A stretch of DNA of 64,000 nt from an uncultured Opitutia bacterium. GTDB lineage: Bacteria > Verrucomicrobiota > Verrucomicrobiia > Opitutales > Opitutaceae. The notes below the pieces were generated by a model, which had not been told where the DNA came from, searched no databases, and worked only from the letters and a program-made list of their open reading frames with translations. Below are positions 1 through 180 of this stretch, piece by piece. Position 1 is the first letter of the stretch, and each line of letters starts with the position of its first letter. The position numbers were made by a program, and so were the translations under genes. The stretch is taken from NCBI GenBank assembly GCA_903825285.1, contig CAIJZY010000060.1, positions 1 to 64,000 on the forward strand. Direction: 5' to 3'.

Positions 1-132
1 CCATTTCTTTATACCCACCCCACCTAAAATAGGCGCTTTTTGCCGAACATCCACGGACCAGAAATTTCTGTCCTCACTCTAAGAAAAGTCAGCGAACATT
101 GCGCTGAACATCGGCGAAAAAATCTGGGGGCC
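1..132. mobile_element. possible terminal part of an insertion element, mostly outside the window
   Basis: AT-richer than the rest of the window; interrupts a mutS N-terminal reading frame; on the minus strand carries three ATGTTC(A/G)GC-like repeats (GATGTTCAGCGC, AATGTTCGCTGA, GATGTTCGGCA), reminiscent of transposase-binding repeats. No transposase is visible. Confidence 0.3.
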
Positions 133-180
133 GACCTCGAAATACTGCTGCATCATCGGGGTGAGTTTCTCGGCCGCCAT
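133..180 (-). pseudogene. mutS: mutS 5' remnant (16 codons): [16 protein letters not shown], then GPQIFSPMFSAMFADFS-stop
   Basis: Manual minus-strand translation; LTPMMQQY is the characteristic MutS N-terminus; similarity stops after codon 16 and a stop follows 17 codons later. Confidence 0.6.

Follow-up and report, generated by a model that had tools for sequence, protein, structure and literature searches.

An integrative, probably mobilizable element occupies the 5′ end of mutS in Opitutaceae and supplies the gene with a replacement start

The window, which is the whole 64,000-nucleotide stretch analysed here, starts with the first base of contig C60, part of a draft genome (G000; 62 contigs, 3.74 Mb). 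Because its left edge is the end of the contig, the sequence further left cannot be read. On the minus strand, positions 180 to 133 encode the first 16 codons of MutS, after which the open frame reads GPQIFSPMFSAMFADFS and stops (Table 1). An earlier note on this DNA had described a mutS frame cut after codon 16, and this description holds: the same N-terminus runs on into MutS in about 40 relatives, which marks the 16-codon start as authentic. The alpha/beta hydrolase adjoins mutS divergently in about 40 relatives (nearly all Opitutaceae/Opitutae), mostly across a gap of about 110–130 bp, and the empty site is present in more than 30. The GC content is 44–50% over window positions 1–150 versus about 62–75% from position 300 on. 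The AT-richer DNA and three ATGTTC-like copies that the note had pointed out are confirmed at 1–132. The copies had been read as ends of an insertion sequence (IS); the region is instead the conserved end of an integrative element, and the repeats are possibly binding sites of the integrase (Int) or of its directionality factor. Just inside this end, a terminator-like hairpin with a T-run (window 89–107, minus strand) could stop the orphan mutS transcript, but one such hairpin against 0.4 expected is not significant. The hydrolase–mutS intergenic region also carries a CCACGAAACCCACGAAGCACACGAAAA-type repeat (window 193–224), a dispersed intergenic repeat that recurs on contigs C37, C10 (twice) and C20.

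Table 1. Features at the left end of the window, in window coordinates
Feature	Position	Strand	Remark
Integrative element, left end (element half of attL)	1..132	-	alignable with G080, L009 and L022; ends at contig end
Putative arm-type integrase site GGTATAA	9..15	-	second copy expected 13 bp further out, from window position 2, cut by contig end
Three ATGTTC copies (106-111, 94-99, 45-50)	45..111	-	within conserved element end
Recombination core CAGTATTTCGAGGTC	133..147	-	exact match to attR, G000:C43 about 50877-50891
Native mutS 5′ end, codons 1-16, orphaned	133..180	-	host half of attL
Native intergenic region, mutS to divergent hydrolase	181..261	.	presumed host mutS promoter and leader; now parted from mutS
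Alpha/beta hydrolase	262..1050	+	divergent mutS neighbour in relatives; marker of empty-site synteny

MutS codons 17 onward, for which the earlier note had proposed a search on the far side of the junction, were found intact on contig C43 (48369–50909, minus strand). This copy is the sole mutS of the genome, so that a second intact mutS, which had also been considered, does not exist there. The encoded protein is complete at 846 aa, matches MutS domains I to V and retains the FxE, Walker A and DEIGRGT motifs. Its frame opens with ATG ACA CCT ATG ATG CAA CAG TAT TTC GAG GTC AAA CGC, and an in-frame TAA lies seven codons upstream. Therefore, mutS translation must begin at the ATG supplied by the element. 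The same replacement start, ATG ACN CCN ATG ATG closely preceded by an in-frame stop, is found in G000, G080, G114 and G873. A tyrosine-recombinase gene lies directly upstream of the C43 mutS and is transcribed away from it. The two junctions, on C60 and C43, have CAGTATTTCGAGGTC in common, and joining them through this core gives the native in-frame mutS N-terminus as in relatives. The core covers MutS codons 9–16, which puts the insertion within the (H)TPMMQQ motif region. Because the core copies of the two junctions differ just 5′ of the core (CAG versus CAA), the crossover would most simply have occurred within it. A scan for the sigma-70 consensus found none at the attR end of the element and none at the native mutS site.

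The portion of the element on C43 spans 50.9–62.6 kb, with the contig ending 11.7 kb into the element. It encodes the integrase, a small conserved gene beside it, a HepT/MntA pair, HipA with an HTH partner, a metallophosphoesterase, a PIN/VapB pair, a 315-aa protein of no known family, a TrwC/MobF relaxase and, at the contig end, an MFS fragment. The integrase is 410 aa long and contains a PF00589 phage-integrase domain (E 7.9e-12); in the alignment, the tyrosine-recombinase residues GMRK, HDLRH, GH and TYGH/TYSH are present in the full-length integrases. Relatives of this integrase were absent from viral contigs, and plasmids gave weak partial matches only. Neither window positions 1–300 nor the last kilobase of C43 has a further match in G000, leaving the middle of the element unplaced, so the element size is given as at least 11.8 kb. 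The junctions of G000 lie on separate contigs, and we infer the physical linkage of C60 and C43 from synteny and from the relatives. At each end in G000, G080 and G114, two GGTATAA-type sites stand 13–14 bp apart in the same orientation, one attL site of G000 being cut by the contig end, and the attL pair is also present in L009 and L022. With the att copies included and both strands taken together, the 7-mer totals 5–6 per 18–91-kb region. We read these pairs as putative arm-type integrase sites. The MobF/TrwC relaxase was found in the two elements examined, those of G000 and G080. No T4SS genes were found among the G080 proteins scanned, which represent part of the ORFs, the G000 element being incomplete.

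At least five other Opitutaceae genomes (G080, G114, G871, G872 and G873) have the same arrangement, each with the native mutS 5′ end left as an orphan on the opposite side of the element, so that the mutS site is occupied in six genomes including G000. In a survey of 372 genomes of the order, the closest integrases were those of G080 (80% identical) and G114 (67% over the remaining part), both directly beside a mutS with a replaced start. From there to the hydrolase-side junction with the orphan start, the distance is 42,437 bp in G080 and 84,265 bp in G114. The next integrase among the 372 genomes is about 42% identical, and mutS was not found beside it. At mutS, the public MAGs G872 (L022) and G873 (L026) have integrases of 83% and 64% identity; on a separate contig, each has an orphan start at the hydrolase. 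In G871 (L009), the junctions are 7,793 bp apart and the integrase is absent. The exact junction pattern occurs in 3 of 252 family genomes, a pattern that misses variants such as G871–G873. Between G000 and G080, the conserved backbone comprises Int (80% identity), the small adjacent gene (82%), the 315-aa gene (55%) and the TrwC/MobF relaxase (75%). Relative to G000, G873 combines 85–86% identity in MutS with 64% in the integrase, and G872 combines 80% with 83%. Because these identities disagree, integrase and host gene do not seem to share one history, as would be expected of a mobile element.

The cargo of the G080 element (G080:C8 72.2–114.6 kb; L112, L113, L104) includes TonB receptors, citrate-type transporters, aconitase, gamma-glutamyltranspeptidase and two-component systems. 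Many genes of the G114 element (G114:C1 4567–4651 kb; L114–L117, L105) look metabolic by sequence, next to a HipBA-like pair. Two further loci have DNA between the hydrolase and mutS. In L036 (about 1490–2720), ~1.1 kb separates the hydrolase from a mutS with its native start. This DNA contains a second mutS start in degenerate form (MTPMMPQYFPV), arm-like sites that are likewise degenerate, and VapBC-looking genes, and is probably a decayed remnant of such a mutS-site element. L051 (3434–5570) has a 2.1-kb insert whose sequence resembles a HipA-type gene and its HTH partner, and a second mutS start was not found in it.

Counted from the core ATGATG, the displaced mutS is open over 843–849 codons in G000, G080, G114, G871 and G872. 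Against the nearest empty-site relatives, its dN/dS is about 0.06–0.31 in these five genomes, averages that include the time before insertion; among the empty-site relatives themselves it is 0.04–0.19, and all values are far below 1. Since mutS remains intact in G114, where the integrase is cut short, and in G871, where it is absent, it can be argued that the element-borne start suffices. The exception is G873, where the mutS behind the element has a deletion and frame change near codon 391 (L143 about 3045–3080, G873:C867), which reflects either a naturally broken gene or a misassembly of the MAG.

Taken together, an integrative, probably mobilizable element has almost certainly integrated site-specifically into mutS codons 9–16, relocating mutS behind the element with a replacement start. 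This reading is built on both junctions, their shared core, the intact mutS, the integrase with its catalytic residues, the empty sites and the recurrent occupied sites in relatives. In the proposed mechanism, the tyrosine recombinase, whose gene lies next to the right end and points away from mutS, would exchange a mutS-like attP core with the chromosomal ATGATGCAGCAGTATTTCGAGGTC, with GGTATAA arm pairs on both sides. The presumed native promoter and first 16 codons are thereby left as an orphan at attL, in the window, and the attR end of the element gives mutS its new start codon and presumably a new promoter. MutS would then be made with an N-terminus that begins at the element-supplied start in place of the native one. 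If the element were excised exactly through the core, native promoter and gene would be joined in frame again. From this model we infer a promoter at the end of the element, its excision and transfer, and a possible effect on the mutation rate.

The break in the mutS coding sequence after codon 16 could also be produced by an IS end or transposon that disrupted the gene and left a mismatch-repair-defective mutator, as the earlier note had suggested. However, no transposase stands beyond the junction, where one had been anticipated; the gene there codes for a tyrosine recombinase, accompanied by an att core and putative arm sites; the ends carry directly oriented arm sites, and in place of a target-site duplication the only duplication is the recombination core. 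In addition, the downstream mutS is complete with its own, element-supplied start, and the same site is occupied in six genomes. We therefore reject an IS or transposon end as very improbable, and with it the loss of mutS, given the intact 846-aa gene on C43. We see no sign of a mutator. The note had left the choice between an insertion-element end and a rearrangement breakpoint; mobile DNA in mutS survives from this proposal, whereas a transposase-type IS and a random rearrangement do not agree with the tyrosine recombinase, the relaxase and the att sites. A misassembly or chimeric contig end might be suspected because the window opens with the very first letter of a draft contig, but independent genomes speak against it: these 132 bp can be aligned with the same element end in G080, L009 and L022, and a single contig holds both junctions in G080, in G871 and in G114, whose genome is one contig. 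This explanation is likewise rejected and has next to no probability. The paired GGTATAA sites at conserved spacing at both ends argue against IS and misassembly alike.

A genetic switch of mismatch repair would add to site-specific integration rather than replace it. As in the comparison cases of Vibrio splendidus 12B01 (mutS) and SpyCIM1 (mutL), excision and reintegration, or Int repressing an element promoter by binding overlapping arm sites, might alter mutS expression and the mutation rate. The position and the replacement start are the same as in Chu et al. 2017, and the interval from int to mutS contains the GGTATAA sites, no more than about 30 bp ahead of the new start. On the other hand, exact core recombination leaves mutS in frame in both states, and mutS is intact also where the element no longer excises by itself (G114 and G871). 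We regard such a switch as possible but rather doubtful.

Elements in the HTPMMQQ motif of mutS that supply a promoter and start have been described in V. splendidus 12B01 and hundreds of Beta- and Gammaproteobacteria (Chu et al. 2017, PMC5296598), with sizes from 4 to >150 kb and variable cargo. In 12B01, excision leaves a 2-bp deletion and a hypermutator, and scarless excision was observed in three other species, for E. coli 536, P. putida F1 and B. multivorans CF2 (PMC5296598). Like these, the Opitutaceae elements occupy the (H)TPMMQQ site, give mutS a new start, leave an orphan native 5′ end and vary in size and cargo, here over 7.8–84 kb; scarless in-frame excision would be expected, with no 2-bp scar. 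They differ in their host phylum, Verrucomicrobiota (Opitutaceae), and in the MobF relaxase of the two elements examined. The G000 integrase has no significant BLASTP match to the mutS-adjacent integrase of E. coli 536, a comparator truncated before its catalytic domain. The E. coli 536 integrase has PF13356 (DUF4102 arm domain) and PF22022, whereas the G000 integrase has neither at E up to 1. In its anatomy, the element belongs to the kind that Chu et al. described; the integrases may or may not be of one family. Kinship with the proteobacterial mutS integrases is frequent in elements of this kind but no requirement. In the SpyCI islands of Streptococcus pyogenes (PMC3430984), a phage-type integrase at the mutL 5′ end parts the gene from its promoter; mutL is silenced in SpyCIM1, and a promoter inside an int pseudogene rescues expression in SpyCIM5. 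The likeness is that a phage-type integrase inserts into the start of a gene for mismatch repair, and the differences are a target, mutL, within an operon, a phage-like island, and another host and gene content. As with integrative and mobilizable elements (IMEs; reviewed in PMC5704250), the G000 and G080 elements combine an integrase with their own relaxase (MobF/TrwC), with no conjugation apparatus among the proteins scanned; transfer from an oriT with a helper element is hypothetical here.

Our literature search found no report of mutS-start elements in Verrucomicrobiota. What is new here, and well supported, is the Verrucomicrobiota lineage, a different-looking integrase, the MobF relaxase in two elements and an intact mutS despite a truncated or absent integrase. 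It is unlikely, in our estimate, that a mobilizable Verrucomicrobiota lineage independently evolved to occupy the same mutS codons and take over mutS expression, such that its carriage would control mismatch repair and the mutation rate. Our results suggest that mobile DNA lands repeatedly in this motif at the start of mutS, perhaps because the protein survives the exchange of its start. In draft genomes, such elements will appear as a truncated mutS, which can be mistaken for the mark of a mismatch-repair mutant. Occupied hosts whose integrase is truncated or missing are a natural experiment on whether a start borne by the element is sufficient for function.
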